Source of the DNA: Saprospiraceae bacterium
Lineage (GTDB): Bacteria > Bacteroidota > Bacteroidia > Chitinophagales > Saprospiraceae
DNA: 64,000 bases
Assembly (NCBI GenBank): GCA_022841745.1
Contig: JALHQW010000004.1
Span: forward strand, 1-64,000
Direction: 5' to 3'
Positions 10,217 to 24,142 of the stretch are shown here, piece after piece; positions within the stretch are counted from its first letter, which is position 1, and each line of letters opens with the position of its first letter. A model generated the notes under the pieces. It was not told the DNA's origin, searched no databases, and saw nothing but the letters and a program-made list of their open reading frames with translations. Position numbers and translations under genes: made by a program.

Positions 10217-10330
10217 ATGCACGAAACATCCCTCGTCCGCAATAGCTTTCGCAGCTTGGAGCAGCCCTTTCCCGCCGATGAGCTGGCCCTTGTCGAGGAA
10301 CAAAAAACCAAAATCGCCGCCCTCGCATGA
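10217..10330 (+). pseudogene. hypA: Truncated hypA (N-terminal stump)
   Basis: The ATG at 10217 opens a 37-residue frame beginning MHETSLVRNSFRSLEQPFPA. This matches the start of HypA, the nickel and zinc carrier for NiFe-hydrogenase maturation (family start MHE-S-v-nif-tle). HypA is normally about 115 residues with a CxxC...CxxC zinc ribbon; here everything after the first helix is missing. Its stop codon overlaps the hypF start as ATGA (10327-10330), so translation of the stump could still couple to hypF. The His2 nickel ligand is kept, but the zinc site is not. It is therefore a remnant or a translational leader rather than a working HypA. Confidence 0.5.
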
Positions 10331-13095
10331 CCCAGCGCACCTACCGCATCCACCTGCAAGGACAGGTACAGGGCGTGGGTTTCCGCCCCTTCGTCTGGCG
10401 CTTGGCGCAGGAAATGGGCTTGCATGGCTGGGTCAACAACGCCGCAGATGGCGTGCATGTCGAGTTCAACGCAAGCCCGCACGAGGCGCAGGTTTTCTTT
10501 GAAAAAATGCAGGCCGAAGCCCCGCCGCTCGCCCGCATCCGGCGCAGTGAAATGGTGGAGGCTCCGCCACGGTTCTTTGAAAAATTCGTAATTGTCGAAA
10601 GCAGTGCCAGTAGCGAACCCGACCTGCCGCTCACGCCGGATTTCGCCCTTTGCGAAGCTTGTACCGCAGACCTCCAGCAGCCCGGCAATCGCCGCCACCG
10701 CTACGCCTTCACCACTTGCACGACTTGCGGGCCTCGCTATTCCATCATCCATCGGCTGCCCTATGATCGGGCGGAGACGGCCATGCAGCCGTTTGCAATG
10801 TGCCCCGACTGCCAGCGGGAATACGATGACGTGACCGACAGGCGGTATTTTTCGCAGACGAATTCTTGTCCAGCATGCGGGGTGAAGATGGTGCTCGTGG
10901 CAAGTCAGGCGGTGACTGTGCCAAGTCAGGCGGTGACTTCAAGTCAAGCAACGACTCCAAGTCAAAGTCAGGCGGTGACTTCAAGTCACCGCCTGACTAC
11001 TGCCACCGACGACACCCCAAGTCAGGCAATGGCTTCAAGTCAAAGTCAGGCGGTGACTTCAAGTCACCGCCTGACTACAGCCGCCGACGACACCCCAAGT
11101 CAAGCAGAGACTTCAAGCCAAAGTCAGGCGGTGACTTCAAGTCACCGACTGACTACAGCCGACGACGACACCCCAAGTCAAGCAGAGACTTCAAGCCAAA
11201 GTCAGGCGGTGACTTCAAGTCACCGACTGACTACAGCCGACGACGACACCCCAAGTCAAGCAGAGACTTCAAGCCAAAGTCAGGCGGTGACTTCAAGTCA
11301 CCGCCTGACTACAGCCGACGACACCACTCCAAGTCAAACAGTGACTTCAAGTCAAAGTCAGGCGGTGACTTCGAGTCGCCGCCTGACTGACACGGTCGAA
11401 GCCCTCCGCCAAGGCAGCATCGTCGCTGCAAAAGGCATCGGCGGCTACCTGCTGCTCTGCGATGCCAGCAACCGCACCGCATTGAAAGCATTGCGCCAGC
11501 GAAAGCACCGACCGAGCAAGCCATTCGCCCTACTCTACCCCAGCCTCGAAGTTTTGGCGAAGGATGCCGAACTCACCGAAGCCGCCATGCAGGAACTCAC
11601 CAGCCCCGTAGCGCCCATCGTGCTGCTGCCTTTGGGTGAAAAACCTGCCTCCGGTGTCGCCTTCGACCTCGTGGCACCCGACTTGGACAAGGTCGGGGCA
11701 ATGCTGCCCTACTCGCCATTGCTACGGCTCTTGGCAGATGATTTTGGTGGGGTGCTGGTCGCAACGAGTGGGAATTTGAGCGGCTCGCCCATCGTGTTTG
11801 AGGATAAAATGGCCTTGGAGCAACTGACTGCCGTCGCTGACTACTTGCTGACCAACAACCGGGAAATCGTCACGCCACAAGACGATAGCGTGCTGACGTT
11901 CAGCCAATTTCACCAGCAAAAAATCATCCTACGCCGCTCACGGGGGCTGGCGCCATCACTGTTCGTGGAGGGTCTGGATTTGCCTTCCAGCAACGTGCTG
12001 GCAATGGGTGCTTCGCTAAAAAGCACCTTCTGCCGACGGCACCGCCGAAACGTTTACGTCAGCCAATACCTCGGCGACCTCGAAAGCTACGATACCCAGC
12101 AGAGCTTCCGCCACGCCCTTGACCACCTGACCGCCGTGCTGCAAACCCCGCCCGACACCGTGCTGCTCGATGCTCATCCTGACTATTTCTCCACCCAACT
12201 TGGCGAGGAATTGGCGGCAAGCTGGGGCGCAAAAACCGCCCGCATCCAGCACCACGAGGCGCATTTCGCAGCGGTCTTGGCGGAAAACGACCTGCTCCGC
12301 TCCCCCGACCCCGTGCTTGGCGTCATCTGGGACGGCACGGGCCTCGGCACGGACGGCCATATCTGGGGCGGCGAATTTTTCCTGAAGGCAAAATCAGGCG
12401 GTGACTTGAAGTCATCGCCCGACTTATCACTAAAACGGGTCGCACACCTCGACAATTTCGACTTCTTGCTCGGCGACAAGATGCCAAGGGAACCCCGTAT
12501 CTCCGCCCTCTCGCTGTGCAAAAGCATAGCAGAAGCGGAGTCATTTTTGGTGACGAAATTCACCCCCAACGAGTGGTTTTTGTACAACCGTTTGCTCCGC
12601 AATGGCAGCAACTTGCAGACCAGTAGTATGGGCCGCTTTTTTGATGGGGTAGCCAGCTTGCTCGGCCTCGGCGATGTTCAGACTTTCGAAGGAGAAGCCG
12701 CCATGCGATTGGAACAAGCAGCGACACGGTTTTTCAAAAAATATGGCTTGTGTTCTGCCGAAAGCTGGTTGGAACAACTTGACAATCAAGGGAATATGCC
12801 GTTTTCGGTTTTATTAACTGGTTTGATGAATGGGCTAAAAAAAGGCGATTCCATCGAAAAGCTTGCTGCGCAATTTCATGTCTCGTTGGTCAATGGCATC
12901 CGGCTCGTTGCACAGCATTGCAACGCCCAAAAGCTCGCCTTCAGTGGCGGCGTCTGGCAAAATGGTCTGTTGGTTGACTTGTGCATCGAGCTGCTCGGCG
13001 GCGATTTCGAGCTGTTTTTTCACCGACAAATTTCACCGAATGACGAATGTGTTTCTTTTGGGCAATTGATTCATCATTTTGAAATCAACAAATGA
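10327..13095 (+). CDS. hypF: Carbamoyltransferase HypF with repeat insertions
   Basis: HypF turns carbamoyl phosphate and ATP into a carbamoyl adenylate and passes it to the C-terminal Cys of HypE, supplying the cyanide ligands of NiFe-hydrogenase. Domains in order: acylphosphatase (about 5-92, VQGVGFRPF), two zinc fingers (about 106-185, CEAC, CTTC, CPDC, CPAC), YrdC-like (from about 355, GSIVAAKGIGGYLL) and a Kae1-like C-terminal half (VIWDGTGLGTDGHIWGGEFF, later LAFSGGVWQNG). The usual length is about 750-780 residues; this one has 922. The excess is a Ser/Gln/Thr-rich tandem-repeat insert (about 192-354) between zinc fingers and YrdC, plus a short insert of related DNA at about 688-699. 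Catalytic regions appear intact. It is first in the hypFCDE run. Confidence 0.93.
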   Translation: MTQRTYRIHLQGQVQGVGFRPFVWRLAQEMGLHGWVNNAADGVHVEFNASPHEAQVFFEKMQAEAPPLARIRRSEMVEAPPRFFEKFVIVESSASSEPDLPLTPDFALCEACTADLQQPGNRRHRYAFTTCTTCGPRYSIIHRLPYDRAETAMQPFAMCPDCQREYDDVTDRRYFSQTNSCPACGVKMVLVASQAVTVPSQAVTSSQATTPSQSQAVTSSHRLTTATDDTPSQAMASSQSQAVTSSHRLTTAADDTPSQAETSSQSQAVTSSHRLTTADDDTPSQAETSSQSQAVTSSHRLTTADDDTPSQAETSSQSQAVTSSHRLTTADDTTPSQTVTSSQSQAVTSSRRLTDTVEALRQGSIVAAKGIGGYLLLCDASNRTALKALRQRKHRPSKPFALLYPSLEVLAKDAELTEAAMQELTSPVAPIVLLPLGEKPASGVAFDLVAPDLDKVGAMLPYSPLLRLLADDFGGVLVATSGNLSGSPIVFEDKMALEQLTAVADYLLTNNREIVTPQDDSVLTFSQFHQQKIILRRSRGLAPSLFVEGLDLPSSNVLAMGASLKSTFCRRHRRNVYVSQYLGDLESYDTQQSFRHALDHLTAVLQTPPDTVLLDAHPDYFSTQLGEELAASWGAKTARIQHHEAHFAAVLAENDLLRSPDPVLGVIWDGTGLGTDGHIWGGEFFLKAKSGGDLKSSPDLSLKRVAHLDNFDFLLGDKMPREPRISALSLCKSIAEAESFLVTKFTPNEWFLYNRLLRNGSNLQTSSMGRFFDGVASLLGLGDVQTFEGEAAMRLEQAATRFFKKYGLCSAESWLEQLDNQGNMPFSVLLTGLMNGLKKGDSIEKLAAQFHVSLVNGIRLVAQHCNAQKLAFSGGVWQNGLLVDLCIELLGGDFELFFHRQISPNDECVSFGQLIHHFEINK
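10903..11390 (+). repeat. 78-bp tandem repeat inside hypF
   Basis: Six copies of a palindromic core beginning GTCAGGCGGTGACTTCAAGT start at 10967, 11045, 11123, 11201, 11279 and 11357, exactly 78 bases (26 codons) apart. Partial units precede them from 10903. The core is a hairpin: a GTCAGGCGGTGACT arm, loop TCA, and an AGTCACCGCCTGAC arm, with an occasional base change in the second arm. In the hypF frame each unit reads SQSQAVTSSHRLTTADDDTP-like. The period keeps the reading frame open in all copies. Confidence 0.95.
12389..12421 (+). repeat. Second, divergent copy of the hypF palindrome, in another frame
   Basis: The sequence AAATCAGGCGGTGACTTGAA and its continuation to CCCGACTT is the same hairpin core as in the 10903-11390 array. 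Here it is read in another frame, as KSGGDLKSSPDLS. It falls between GGEFFL and KRVAHL, which are nearly adjacent in ordinary HypF, so it is an insertion of roughly 12-16 residues. Confidence 0.8.
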
Positions 13096-18744: not shown

Positions 18745-19485
18745 TCACCACTCCTGACCGGGATAGGCCCTTTGCAGAAACTGCATTTCAGCGAGGATGA
18801 AGCCGAGGTACTCGCTATGGCGGCCATCCTTTCCACCCGTTTGCATAAAAATGCCAGCTGGCATGCTTAGGTTAGCACCAGCGAAAATTTCCGACATTTT
18901 GCCCTCGATAGCGGGTTTCAGCAGGTTCAAATCAGGGATGATGCCTTGTTGGGCAAGGTCTTTCTCGACTTCGTTGGGTATGGTAAGCTCACCAGAATAG
19001 GTCCAAAGGTCTTCAATTGCCGCTTGCAGCTTGGCGTGGCTGACCTCAGTGCCATCGCCGAGGCGTAGTATCCATTCGGAGCTAAAGCGGAGGTGGTAAG
19101 TGATTTCCTTCAAGGATTTTGCGGCGAAGCCCGCCAGCCATTCGTCCTTGCTTTGGGCGAGGGCTTGGTACAAATAATAATTGTATGCATCAAACACGAA
19201 CTGCCGTAGGATGGTATGCGCAAAATCGCCGTTGGGCTGCTCCAAGAGCAGGGCATTGCGGAATTCCCTTACGTCACGCAGGTAGGCGTAGTCGTCTTCG
19301 TCTTTCCCAATTCCTTCCAGTTCAGCGACCCGCTGGTAAAGGCTTCTAGCTTGCCCTGTGAGGTCGAGTGCAATATTGGTAAGGGCAATGTCCAGTTCCA
19401 TTTCTGGGGCATGGCCGCACCATTCGCCCAGGCGGTGACCGAGGATGAGGGCATTATCGGCGAGTTGTAGAAGGTATTGATTCAT
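18745..19485 (-). CDS. paaC: 1,2-phenylacetyl-CoA epoxidase subunit PaaC
   Basis: A 246-residue PaaC, the ferritin-like structural partner of PaaA in ring-1,2-epoxidation of phenylacetyl-CoA. It has the typical opening (LADNALILGHRLGEWCGHAP, then LDLTGQARSLYQRVAELEG) and the helical core (EFRNALLLEQPNGDFAHTI, SLKEITYHLRFSSEWILRLG). Third in the paaABC run on the minus strand, 104 bases after paaB. The length is normal. Confidence 0.95.
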   Translation of the reverse strand: MNQYLLQLADNALILGHRLGEWCGHAPEMELDIALTNIALDLTGQARSLYQRVAELEGIGKDEDDYAYLRDVREFRNALLLEQPNGDFAHTILRQFVFDAYNYYLYQALAQSKDEWLAGFAAKSLKEITYHLRFSSEWILRLGDGTEVSHAKLQAAIEDLWTYSGELTIPNEVEKDLAQQGIIPDLNLLKPAIEGKMSEIFAGANLSMPAGIFMQTGGKDGRHSEYLGFILAEMQFLQRAYPGQEW

Positions 19486-19486
19486 G

Positions 19487-19589
19487 GCTTCACGGTTTCA
19501 TGGTTTCATGGATTCACGGTTTCATGGATTGATGGATTCAGGGCTTGAATGGCAATGGCAACAATGAAGCCATGAACCAATGAAGCCAT
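19487..19589. repeat. Reiterated-word spacer between paaB and paaC
   Basis: The spacer consists of repeats of a TTCATGGATT / TTCACGG word followed by complementary AATGAAGCCATG words, so it can fold into a stem. Its word differs from those of the other spacers. Confidence 0.6.
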
Positions 19590-19874
19590 TTACATGTGCG
19601 ATATTTCATCGGGCACAGTGTAGAACGTCGGGTGGCGATAGACCTTGTCCCGTGCTGGTTCGAAGAGTGGGTCGGAGTCGTCAGGGTCGGAAGCGGTGAT
19701 ATGCTTGGACTCGACTACCCAGATGCTGACGCCTTCGTTGCGGCGGGTGTAGAGGTCACGGGCGTTTTCGAGCGCCATTTCCGCATCGGAGGCATGGAGG
19801 CTGCCGACGTGCTTGTGGTTGAGGCCACTTTTACTGCGGATGAATATTTCCCAGAGGGGCCATTCCTTTTTCAT
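19590..19874 (-). CDS. paaB: 1,2-phenylacetyl-CoA epoxidase subunit PaaB
   Basis: A 94-residue PaaB, the small bridging subunit that holds PaaAC heterodimers together. It shows the family pattern WPLWEIFIRSKSGLNHKHVG, SLHASDAEMALENARDLYTR and EGVSIWVVESKHITASDP. The length is normal. It lies between paaA and paaC, all on the minus strand. Confidence 0.95.
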   Translation of the reverse strand: MKKEWPLWEIFIRSKSGLNHKHVGSLHASDAEMALENARDLYTRRNEGVSIWVVESKHITASDPDDSDPLFEPARDKVYRHPTFYTVPDEISHM

Positions 19875-19958
19875 GGAGTTGATTGTTTGATTGCTGGCAT
19901 TGTTTGATTGTTGTTAGAGGCCGAAAACAATTTAACCATCAAACAATTCAACAATTAC

Positions 19959-20921
19959 CTAGGCAGCTTTTACGGCAGCTTCTGGCTGGAGTTTGCGTTG
20001 CTCTTTTTTCTCGGCATGGGCCATAGCGGCTTCCCGTACCCAAGCGCCATCTTCGTAAGCTTTAATGCGGGCTTGGATGCGCTGGCGGTTGCAGGGGCCA
20101 TTGCCTTTTACGACCTTCCAGAACTCGTCCCAATCGATTTTGCCAAAATCATAGTGGCCACGCTCCTCGTTCCAGTGGAGGTCGGGGTCGGGCAAGGTGA
20201 GGCCGAGGTACTCGGCCTGCGGCACGGTCACGTCCACGAAGCTCTGGCGAAGCTCGTCGTTCGATTTCCGCTTGATTTTCCACTTGATGGCTTGGTCGGA
20301 GTGGGTGGACTCGGCGTCGTGCGGGCCGAACATCATCAGGGCGGGCCACCACCAGCGGTTGAGGGCGTCCTGTGCCATGGCTTTTTGTTCGGACGAGCCA
20401 AAGGCCATGGCCATCATCAGCTCGTAGCCTTGGCGCTGATGGAAACTTTCTTCCTTGCAGATGCGCACCATCGCACGGGCGTATGGGCCATAGGAAGTGC
20501 GGGTGAGCATGACCTGGTTCATAATGGCCGCCCCGTCCACCAGCCAACCTATGGCGCCGATGTCGGCCCAGTTGAGCGTGGGGTAGTTGAAGATGGAAGA
20601 GTATTTGGCCTTTCCAGTCAGTAGCTGTTGTACGAGGTCGTCCCGGTCAGCGCCGAGGGTCTCGGCGGCGGAGTAGAGGTAGAGGCCGTGGCCGGCTTCG
20701 TCTTGTACTTTGGCTAGGAGGATGAGCTTCCGGCGGAGGGATGGTGCCCTGGTAATCCAGTTACCTTCGGGCAGCATCCCCACGATCTCGGAATGGGCGT
20801 GTTGGGAAATTTGGCGGATTAGGGTCTTCCGGTAGGCATCCGGCATCCAGTCCTTTGGTTCTATTTTTACTTCATCGTCAATTTTGGACTGGAAAATTGC
20901 TTCAAAATTCAAGCTAGTCAT
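19959..20921 (-). CDS. paaA: 1,2-phenylacetyl-CoA epoxidase catalytic subunit PaaA
   Basis: A 320-residue PaaA, the di-iron catalytic subunit of the phenylacetyl-CoA epoxidase, which starts aerobic phenylacetate degradation through ring epoxides. The ferritin-like ligands are visible in [17 protein letters not shown] (Glu and His of one ExxH) and [15 protein letters not shown] (second ExxH). [16 protein letters not shown] and [20 protein letters not shown] are family hallmarks. First in the operon, directly behind a promoter with an operator-like palindrome. paaD and paaE, needed for activity in known systems, are not in the window. Confidence 0.96.
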
Positions 20922-21411: not shown

Positions 21412-22698
21412 ATGGAACAAAACAACGGTCAGGTTGATGCGCTCAACGTAATGGTCAATGGTCTGCGAGACTTGGGGATTGTACATTTGAATTTGGATGA
21501 CACCCCGATGCCAGACAGGAGGATTATTCACTTAGATGGGCAGCCTTTACTTAATTTTTCTTCTTGCAACTATGTCGGATTGGAAGCAGACGAAAGGTTG
21601 AAAACGGCGGCAATAGAAGCCATCCAGAAATATGGCACCCAATACTATTGCGTCAGGGCATATACTTCGCTTTACCCCTACCAAGAACTTGAAGCGTTGA
21701 TGCAAGCTATTTTTGGATTTCCAGCAATCGTTATGCCCACCACCATGCTGGGGCACCTGTCGTGTCTTCCCTCTTTAGTAGGCCCAGATGATGCGGTCAT
21801 TATGGACCACCAAGTCCATACCAGTGTGCAGATGAGCGTGAAAATACTAAAAACAAATGGTACCCACGCAGAAATGATCCGGCACAACCGCATGGATTAT
21901 TTGGAATCCCGCATACAGAAACTAAGCACTCAGCACAAAAAAGTTTGGTACTTGGCCGACGGTGTTTATTCCATGTACGGAAATATTGCTCCGATGAAAC
22001 AACTGTACGAACTCATGCAAAACTATGAGCAGTTCCGGTTGTACATTGACGACTCTCATGGGATGAGTTGGATGGGAAAGAACGGTTCCGGCTCCGTGTT
22101 GGCTGGCATGCCTTTCCATCCCCAATTAGTGCTTATGACCTCTTTGGGCAAGGCATTTGGAGCGTCAGGTGGGGCAGCTGTTTTCCACGACCAAAAAACA
22201 AAAGAACTTGTCATAAATACGGGCAAGCCACTCATCTTCACAGGCCCACTCCAGCCCGCAACCCTTGGTGCAGCTGTAGCTTCAGCCAAAATACACCTCA
22301 GCGATGAAATCTATGCTCTTCAAAATAAGCTCAAGTCCAATATCAAGTACTTCGCCGAAAAAGCCAAAATGTTGGACTTGCCGTTCATAAGCAAGGATGG
22401 TACGCCCATCTTTTTCCTTGGCGTCAGCAAGTTGAATGTCGCAACAAAACTCATTAAAGCATTGATGGGTGAAGGATTTTACGCTGGTATCGCCTGCTAC
22501 CCAAGTGTACCACAGAACAACACGGGGGTCAGGTTTATGATTACCTTGAACCATACAGAAGAAGATATTGACATCTTGCTTGAGAAAATCGCAAGCCTGC
22601 TTCCCAATATATTAGCTTCGGAAAAACTGAGTGTAGAAAAAATCTGGAAAGCATTCAATAAGGATGTTGCCATCGGTGATACAATGGGTGGAAGATAA
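21412..22698 (+). CDS. Alpha-oxoamine synthase family PLP enzyme (CqsA/BioF/SPT-like)
   Basis: A 428-residue fold-type I PLP enzyme of the alpha-oxoamine synthase group, which condenses an amino acid with an acyl-CoA and releases CO2. Motifs are LNFSSCNYVGLEADERLKTA, YIDDSHGMSWMGKNGSG (Asp/His contacting PLP) and MTSLGKAFGASGGA, whose Lys247 forms the internal aldimine. The protein has about 40 residues before the core and a C-terminal extension of similar size, longer than BioF (about 385) and close to CqsA and serine palmitoyltransferase. No biotin or sphingolipid gene is adjacent. The next gene, 49 bases on, is a multi-pass histidine kinase. The product (amino ketone signal, sphingoid base or other) cannot be read from sequence. 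Confidence 0.85.
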   Translation: MEQNNGQVDALNVMVNGLRDLGIVHLNLDDTPMPDRRIIHLDGQPLLNFSSCNYVGLEADERLKTAAIEAIQKYGTQYYCVRAYTSLYPYQELEALMQAIFGFPAIVMPTTMLGHLSCLPSLVGPDDAVIMDHQVHTSVQMSVKILKTNGTHAEMIRHNRMDYLESRIQKLSTQHKKVWYLADGVYSMYGNIAPMKQLYELMQNYEQFRLYIDDSHGMSWMGKNGSGSVLAGMPFHPQLVLMTSLGKAFGASGGAAVFHDQKTKELVINTGKPLIFTGPLQPATLGAAVASAKIHLSDEIYALQNKLKSNIKYFAEKAKMLDLPFISKDGTPIFFLGVSKLNVATKLIKALMGEGFYAGIACYPSVPQNNTGVRFMITLNHTEEDIDILLEKIASLLPNILASEKLSVEKIWKAFNKDVAIGDTMGGR

Positions 22699-22747
22699 CT
22701 TGGCAGAAATATTGCTTCGTTGGTATTTTGGTTAATCCCTCTTTACA

Positions 22748-24142
22748 ATGTCAGTAGTTTCCGTCAAAAAAAATTTCAGTATTTTAGCCCGTAAATACGA
22801 TGAGTATTTTATAAACGCAAAGCTGGAGGAATCCTCCTTGGATTTGCGCAAGGCAAGGATATTGGTATTCATCCATCTCTTTATCATATTTGTTGGATTG
22901 TCGTACGAGATTGCTAACAGGCTATGGCCTGGCGTTGATAGTCCCTCTACCATTGTTGGGATTCTACTTTTTTGTGGACTAACGTACATATTCAAGCGTT
23001 ATGGAAATTTCTTTGTCTCAGGTAACCTGGTAGCCTTTATCTTGTTTGTCGTCCTATTGGAGTCTGTTTTCGCCACAGGCGGCCTCTACTCCGACAACCT
23101 GCTTTGGATAATGGCCACTCCCCTCACGGCGCTTTTGTTCGCAAGCCCTCGTTCTGGTATCGTTTGGTTGTCGGTCCTTGTAGGGGTCACTTTTTACTTA
23201 TTCGTACTCGACTTGCAGAACCCTGGGTACTACAGGAAACAAACCGAAGACCTTGATGGGCTGTATTACCTTATCACCTACAACGGCTTGTTTGTCATGC
23301 TTATCGGCATCGTACTGATCTTCGCCACGGGCCAGTCCATGATAATCAAGGCATTAGATGCCAAACAAATGGAGCTTGAGGAGCAAAAAGCAGAGCTTAC
23401 CCGACAAAAGGAGGCCCTTGTCGTTGCAGAAGAAAAGCTCAAATCCATCAACCATGAACTCGAAAGGTTCGCATACTCCGCCTCGCACGACCTCAAGGAG
23501 CCATTACGGATGATAGGAAGCTATGTTATGCTGGTCAAGCGCAGGATTGGAACCGACCTCGACCCCGATACGAAAGAGTACATAGGGTTCATCACGGACG
23601 GCGTATCAAGGATGGAAAAAATGCTAAATGACCTACTTCAATACTCTAGGCTGGGCAGGAACAAAGAACAACTGAAAGACCAAGACCTGAACGATACATT
23701 GCTGGTCGTCATGCAGAACCTAATGGCCGCCATGGAAAACACAAACACGGCTATTTACGCCAACCAACTGCCCGTCATTCGTTCTATTTCGGTTGAAATG
23801 TTGCAGCTTTTTCAAAACCTGATATCCAATTCCATCAAGTTCAGGCGAAAAGACCTCAGCCCGGTCATAGGCATTACCTACCAAGATGAGCAGGACCAGC
23901 ACCGTTTCATGTTTATGGACAATGGCATCGGCATACCGGAAAAGAACAAGCAGTCCGTGTTCGACATCTTCGAGCGCCTTCACTCCATCCAAGAATACGA
24001 AGGAAGCGGCATCGGGCTGGCCACCTGCAAGAAAATCGTGAACAACATGGGTGGTAAGATTTGGATCGAGCCAAACAAAGCTGTCGGCACTACTTTTACG
24101 TTCACTTTACCAAAAGAACGCAAGAACCTGCCTGTAATCTAA
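22748..24142 (+). CDS. Multi-pass membrane sensor histidine kinase
   Basis: A 464-residue kinase. The N-terminal half (about 35-200) holds five or six transmembrane helices with very short loops and no extracellular domain, suited to sensing a hydrophobic ligand in the membrane. A coiled coil (about 203-238) leads to HisKA with phospho-acceptor His247 in SASHDLKEPLRMIG. HATPase follows with N box FQNLISNSIKFRR, G1 FMDNGIGIPEKNK and G2 GSGIGLATCKKIV. Unlike CqsS it has no receiver domain, and no response regulator lies next to it. It is 49 bases downstream of the oxoamine synthase in the same direction, so co-transcription is likely. Confidence 0.9.
   Translation: MSVVSVKKNFSILARKYDEYFINAKLEESSLDLRKARILVFIHLFIIFVGLSYEIANRLWPGVDSPSTIVGILLFCGLTYIFKRYGNFFVSGNLVAFILFVVLLESVFATGGLYSDNLLWIMATPLTALLFASPRSGIVWLSVLVGVTFYLFVLDLQNPGYYRKQTEDLDGLYYLITYNGLFVMLIGIVLIFATGQSMIIKALDAKQMELEEQKAELTRQKEALVVAEEKLKSINHELERFAYSASHDLKEPLRMIGSYVMLVKRRIGTDLDPDTKEYIGFITDGVSRMEKMLNDLLQYSRLGRNKEQLKDQDLNDTLLVVMQNLMAAMENTNTAIYANQLPVIRSISVEMLQLFQNLISNSIKFRRKDLSPVIGITYQDEQDQHRFMFMDNGIGIPEKNKQSVFDIFERLHSIQEYEGSGIGLATCKKIVNNMGGKIWIEPNKAVGTTFTFTLPKERKNLPVI

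Follow-up and report, generated by a model that had tools for sequence, protein, structure and literature searches.

The described systems closest to the gene pair analysed here are the alpha-hydroxyketone quorum-sensing pairs CqsA/CqsS and LqsA/LqsS of Vibrio and Legionella, in which a single alpha-oxoamine synthase (AOS) is encoded beside a histidine kinase with a sensor made of membrane helices only. At several true CqsA/LqsA loci inspected by eye, LqsS-like kinases and LqsR-like proteins lie beside the enzyme, and the LqsS-type kinases found there (428–470 aa), judged by length and by eye, have no receiver domain. Production of alpha-hydroxyketones (AHK) is said to be restricted to gamma-proteobacteria, with homologues of lqsA and lqsS also present in some other environmental proteobacteria (PMC3376566).

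The window, i.e., the whole stretch of 64,000 nucleotides analysed, belongs to a genome of 8.43 Mb in 178 contigs and carries a pair of similar layout in Bacteroidota, not in gamma-proteobacteria. On its + strand, a complete ORF for a PLP-dependent AOS of 428 aa (21412..22698) is followed, after an intergenic gap of 49 bases (22699..22747; 55–70 bases in the related loci L129, L046 and L132), by a complete ORF for a sensor histidine kinase of 464 aa (22748..24142). Coordinates, Pfam matches and alignment to known AOS enzymes bear out what an earlier note had read from the letters: a PLP alpha-oxoamine synthase with Lys247 in SLGKAFGASGG and, on the same strand, a kinase sensing through membrane helices only, with neither a receiver domain of its own nor a response regulator beside it. 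It had also remarked on the lack of adjacent biotin and sphingolipid genes, and indeed no bio, sphingolipid or response-regulator gene adjoins the pair. Annotation by eye gives paaC/paaB/paaA on the opposite strand upstream of the synthase and a convergent DinB-like gene downstream of the kinase. Scans for sigma-70-type promoters and terminators returned matches no better than chance.

The Pfam domain Aminotran_1_2 covers residues 47–393 of the synthase (E 3.5e-24). The PLP-binding Lys247 (codon 22150..22152) does not vary among 20 family members, and its counterparts in the alignment are BioF K236, Kbl K244 and CqsA K249. The AOS catalytic set as a whole is intact, since K247, H136, D213, H216 and R374 align with their counterparts in BioF, Kbl, SPT and CqsA. 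With a fold type I domain, the PLP lysine and the catalytic His/Asp/His/Arg, the protein is an alpha-oxoamine synthase. Its best NCBIfam model is NF005697 (PRK07505), at 262.1 bits and below the cut-off of 342. The CqsA/LqsA model NF005526 gives it 87.8 bits (cut-off 428), less than the same model gives the SPT (217) and Kbl (179) of the same genome. Scores are likewise low with the serine palmitoyltransferase model NF047600 (136.5 bits, cut-off 640), the bioF model (193, cut-off 426) and two Kbl models (166, cut-off 460; 142, cut-off 493). Separate SPT (contig C23, 665.5 bits) and Kbl genes exist in the window genome, each above its own cut-off.

A tree of 52 enzymes built with IQ-TREE places the 32 members of the window family in one group (95/92), sister to PRK07505 (100/100), and a 100/100 branch parts these two from CqsA/LqsA, BioF, Kbl, SPT and CFAT-like enzymes. 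Six true CqsA/LqsA proteins, all scoring above cut-off, were included; they came from sampling the class to which a MAG labelled Pseudomonadales belongs, and they group apart from the window synthase in a 100/100 clade of their own. Model scores and tree together exclude an SPT, Kbl, BioF or CFAT identity, and the tree, which the earlier note had proposed as a check, keeps the synthase out of the SPT and Kbl clades. It places the enzyme in a large uncharacterised AOS clade of its own, sister to PRK07505. That clade carries a marker before the YLG motif, where Cys (Thr in 8) replaces the Asn of BioF, Kbl, SPT and CqsA, as counted over 97 members, 13 of which were unmatched by the search pattern. 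In the window synthase the change is Cys52 (codon 21565..21567), at the column of BioF N47, Kbl N50, SPT N74 and CqsA N60. In Kbl the Asn at this column makes contact with the carboxylate of the substrate, so the window clade may handle its substrate in another way.

PRK07505 shares the Cys-for-Asn change, and yet the window enzyme falls below its cut-off and the two true PRK07505 members inspected by eye sit in MaoC-like/CoA-lyase-like metabolic neighbourhoods with no recognisable kinase beside them. The best solved relative by sequence is the AOS Alb29 of Streptomyces albogriseolus (8xha, E 9e-37), for which we know of no kinase partner. Alb29 differs in being a natural-product pathway enzyme, reported to join L-glutamate and acyl-CoAs into aminoketones (PMC11906848).

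The kinase consists of HisKA (238–303) and HATPase_c (351–457), with no other Pfam domain and no named sensor domain. Its H-box SHDLKEP and ATP-binding motifs are largely invariant across 16 kinases of the window type, and the phospho-acceptor His247 (codon 23486..23488) is invariant in all of them. The membrane sensor spans approximately residues 30–195 (22835..23332); 4–6 membrane helices are predicted, the number varying by ortholog, and the AlphaFold2 model (mean pLDDT 86.7) shows a predicted 6-helix membrane bundle that continues into a long helix of coiled-coil type. Within the sensor lies the motif GGLYSDN (residues 111–117; 23078..23098), a candidate ligand site in which G111, G112, S115, D116 and N117 are invariant in an alignment of 15 sensors. 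A Foldseek search with the sensor model found nothing below E 0.001. The top VIA-align match was 7yzk_A (Rv1625c, Z 12.7 over 196 residues), followed by three AC9 entries (Z 10.0–10.6) and then a row at Z 6.7; these values lie just under the trusted level, as a Z below ~13 may reflect mere helical-bundle similarity, and all of the top four are 6TM anchors of adenylyl cyclases. CqsS has been used to replace the Rv1625c anchor, making the cyclase respond to CAI-1 (PMC4821796, Beltz et al.). The match to the Rv1625c/AC9 anchor may thus offer an indirect structural bridge from the window sensor to CqsS, as a likeness to an anchor with which CqsS is interchangeable. By profile comparison (hhalign), the window sensor type joins a 586-aa kinase type (E 3.5e-6) and unlinked relatives (E 2e-38). 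No relation to sensor types C, D, E and F was found by the same method, and these are therefore counted as dissimilar. Against CqsS/LqsS sensors, hhalign gave a probability of 0.11 and E 0.51, the level of unrelated controls.

The arrangement of a predicted multi-helix sensor followed by HisKA/HATPase agrees with the layout of CqsS/LqsS, and in its length and the lack of a receiver the window kinase resembles the LqsS type. There are also differences: the synthase sits in another AOS clade than CqsA/LqsA, with Cys for the conserved Asn; the sensor has no detectable sequence relation to CqsS/LqsS; the C-terminal receiver of CqsS is absent; and there is no LqsR at the window locus. The description of the locus as a CqsA/CqsS-like pair therefore survives as a functional analogy and fails as homology (88 bits against 428, the tree, an unrelated sensor profile); strict CqsA/CqsS homology is excluded on these grounds. 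Our verdict is that the window pair may well work like CqsA/CqsS, by analogy, and that it falls outside that family when judged by sequence.

We followed the pair through a set of 61 relatives, 14 of which, the window genome included, make up the genus. Synthase and kinase are adjacent in 8 of the 14, again counting the window genome, and identity to the seven other adjacent pairs is 50–78% for the synthase and 52–76% for the kinase. The kinase is present in all 14 genomes and synthase orthologs are found genus-wide, as a fragment at a contig end in G006 and only in a 47% form in G011. Contig ends split the pair in G006 and probably in G002; the two genes lie apart in G012, G003 and G005. The paaC/paaB/paaA-like genes (18745–20921), divergent to the synthase, remain in place in about ten genomes of the genus, including some in which the kinase lies at another site. 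Because these divergent genes stay by the synthase without the kinase, genus-level synteny is given little weight, and adjacency inside the genus alone was rejected as proof; the weight rests on G096, L157, G058 and the family survey. In G096, a second genus of the family, the same pair is adjacent with 45% (synthase) and 42% (kinase) identity, and it is adjacent also in the MAG L157. In G058, from another family, a related kinase is convergent to a fusion-type synthase at 20 bp; its catalytic half is 43% identical and a run of N lies within its sensor. The pair is thus conserved in related genomes, the lack of which the earlier note had named as grounds against its proposal.

Co-occurrence points the same way. 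Both genes are found in 17 of the 61 relatives, the synthase only in 1, the kinase only in 1 and neither in 42; outside the genus the corresponding counts are 3, 1, 1 and 42 (Fisher p 0.001). Across a sample of 395 genomes of the phylum, 9 of which carry any family member, close sensors (E < 1e-79) are confined to the window genome (G000) and G096, which are also the two that carry a synthase of the standalone form. Weaker sensor relatives do occur in genomes without the synthase, namely G030 among the 61 relatives and G206, G237, G253, G257, G333, G341 and G399 in the phylum sample. The window genome also holds a second synthase of the same clade (contig C15, L059, 47%) and a second kinase of the window sensor type (contig C13, L096, 38%), which are not next to one another.

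A genome scan for relatives of the synthase gave at least 583, and the best 80, nearly all from Bacteroidota, were retained; joined with the whole-genome loci they make 97 distinct synthases. These loci were picked as most like the window synthase, and the neighbour rates therefore hold for that part of the family. A histidine kinase lies within 1.5 kb at 51 of the 97 loci versus 0 of 16 other AOS loci, a small control that is mostly Kbl-like by eye, and this is the outcome in Bacteroidota of the neighbourhood survey proposed at the outset. As an immediate neighbour, a kinase is found at 47/97 synthase loci versus 0/90 background genes. The window genome has 67 HATPase_c matches above cut-off, ~1% of its genes, from which a kinase adjacency of ~2% would be expected by chance; the background counts exclude chance adjacency of synthase and kinase. 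Of 57 standalone synthases, 35 have signalling genes within three genes, as do 34 of the 40 fusions; for about a third of the family no signalling gene is recognised that close, and some ten of these loci lie at contig ends.

Beside the standalone synthases (~425 aa) lie kinases that carry a multi-helix domain at the N-terminus and often PAS domains as well, or else LytS/LytTR-like pairs (by eye). The fusion synthases (~810–840 aa) have a C-terminal domain with a model (pLDDT 89.8) that matches FemX and N-myristoyltransferase (NMT) folds and, in most members, an Acetyltransf_6 or FemAB_like match. Their usual divergent neighbours are a DUF7793 protein, a NarL-type regulator and a kinase of PAS-HisKA_3 type; for the fusions of one family in the same class, the neighbours are DUF7793 and a PAS-AraC regulator, next to conjugative-element-type proteins (RteC and HTH_17). 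Among the named isolates with fusion members are Crocinitomix catalasitica, Ginsengibacter hankyongi and Parachryseolinea silvisoli. Recurrent in the family are at least five sensor types unlike one another, along with PAS kinase/regulator sets and mobile-element versions. Mapped on the synthase tree, partner type needs 22 changes over 13 classes, with at least five (gains or losses) for the window sensor class, which indicates that kinases of different make repeatedly came beside the synthase. No other biosynthetic gene forming a pathway with the synthase was found in the neighbourhoods surveyed.

The earlier suggestion of a signal synthase with its own receptor kinase finds strong support in the neighbourhood survey and the phylogenetic profile. 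We lean towards the reading that the synthase makes a lipophilic amino-ketone signal, that the adjacent kinase senses it and that phosphate goes to an unlinked regulator. Judging by family chemistry, the enzyme would condense an amino acid with an acyl thioester into a lipophilic alpha-aminoketone. This product would move in or across the membrane and bind within the 6TM sensor, possibly near GGLYSDN; binding would alter the autophosphorylation of His247, from which the phosphate would pass to an unlinked response regulator. The ligand, its sensing and a role between cells are what we infer for the pair. The AOS clade related to the window synthase and its neighbouring signalling genes are probably a hitherto undescribed chemical signalling system; a literature search, mostly without subscription papers, found no paper linking the window synthase group or PRK07505 to kinases. 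More tentatively, and with slightly less than even confidence, we picture a small-molecule signalling family extending over Bacteroidota, in which the AOS clade would make amino-ketone lipids, often modified by a fused FemX/NMT-like acyltransferase, and the receptors that read them would be interchangeable: multi-TM kinases of several dissimilar kinds, PAS-AraC regulators, or soluble PAS kinases with DUF7793. The family would take in the versions that lie beside conjugative-element regulators, and the window would hold its simplest, two-gene form.

The main rival reading is that the kinase acts as a local homeostatic controller: the synthase would make a membrane amino-ketone lipid or precursor, and the kinase would read the membrane or the product level and adjust synthesis within one cell. 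The FemX/NMT-like acyltransferase of the fusions does recall sphingolipid synthesis, in which an acyltransferase acylates the SPT product (PMC11087976), and local control is commonly laid out in the manner of the divergent sets of DUF7793, PAS kinase and NarL regulator. The standalone types, however, mostly have a kinase with no response regulator beside it, and direct local transcriptional control is therefore not evident; furthermore, neither a reductase nor an ACP nor any other lipid gene is a repeated neighbour of the synthase, and the family is patchy (the 9/395 sampled genomes above). The likeness to bacterial SPT and bCerS stops at the AOS-plus-acyltransferase logic of the fusions, as SPT belongs to another clade, the genes around the fusions are regulatory ones and not lipid genes, and the window gene has no acyltransferase. 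Neighbourhoods cannot separate local control from communication, and we regard local control as unlikely on balance.

A connection of the synthase with the divergent paaA–C genes, in which it would use aryl-CoA and the kinase would be a bystander or sense an aromatic ketone, appears improbable. It would account for a synthase–paa neighbourhood that persists where the kinase is elsewhere, and AOS enzymes forming aryl ketones are known (PMC12278337), but the pairs in G009 (L052) and G096 (L116) lack paa neighbours, and no paa-like gene recurs family-wide. We give even less credence to ordinary AOS metabolism (SPT, Kbl, BioF or CFAT) beside an unrelated kinase, which in its sphingoid-base form was the main alternative named in the earlier note. 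In its favour are the shared enzyme superfamily and the conserved catalytic residues; against it, the tree excludes the four clades at 100/100, the genome has its SPT and Kbl genes at other sites, each above its own cut-off, and kinases accompany the synthase far more often than they do background genes.

Little is known of the signals, cell–cell or lipid, that are native to Bacteroidota. If signalling by the window pair is real, it would supply an enzyme and a receptor that are both defined, with at least 583 related loci to study, would suggest that AOS enzymes and membrane kinases became paired outside the CqsA lineage as well, and would provide candidate natural ligands for receptors of the 6TM cyclase-anchor type.

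Some further observations were made along the way. The fusions L117–L124, beside conjugative-element regulators, are possibly signal genes carried on mobile elements. A MAG labelled Pseudomonadales (L193/L232) has two AOS–acyltransferase fusion genes ~1.6 kb apart, and at L231 (G546) a fusion synthase lies upstream of, and divergent from, an ORF resembling an acyl-adenylating enzyme (by eye), which hints at a natural-product setting. Elsewhere in the window, a HypF-like ORF (10327–13095) followed by hypD- and hypE-like genes contains, within the protein, an in-frame tandem repeat of 78 bp (26 aa) at 10940–11388, with 5.8 copies and a 94% match.
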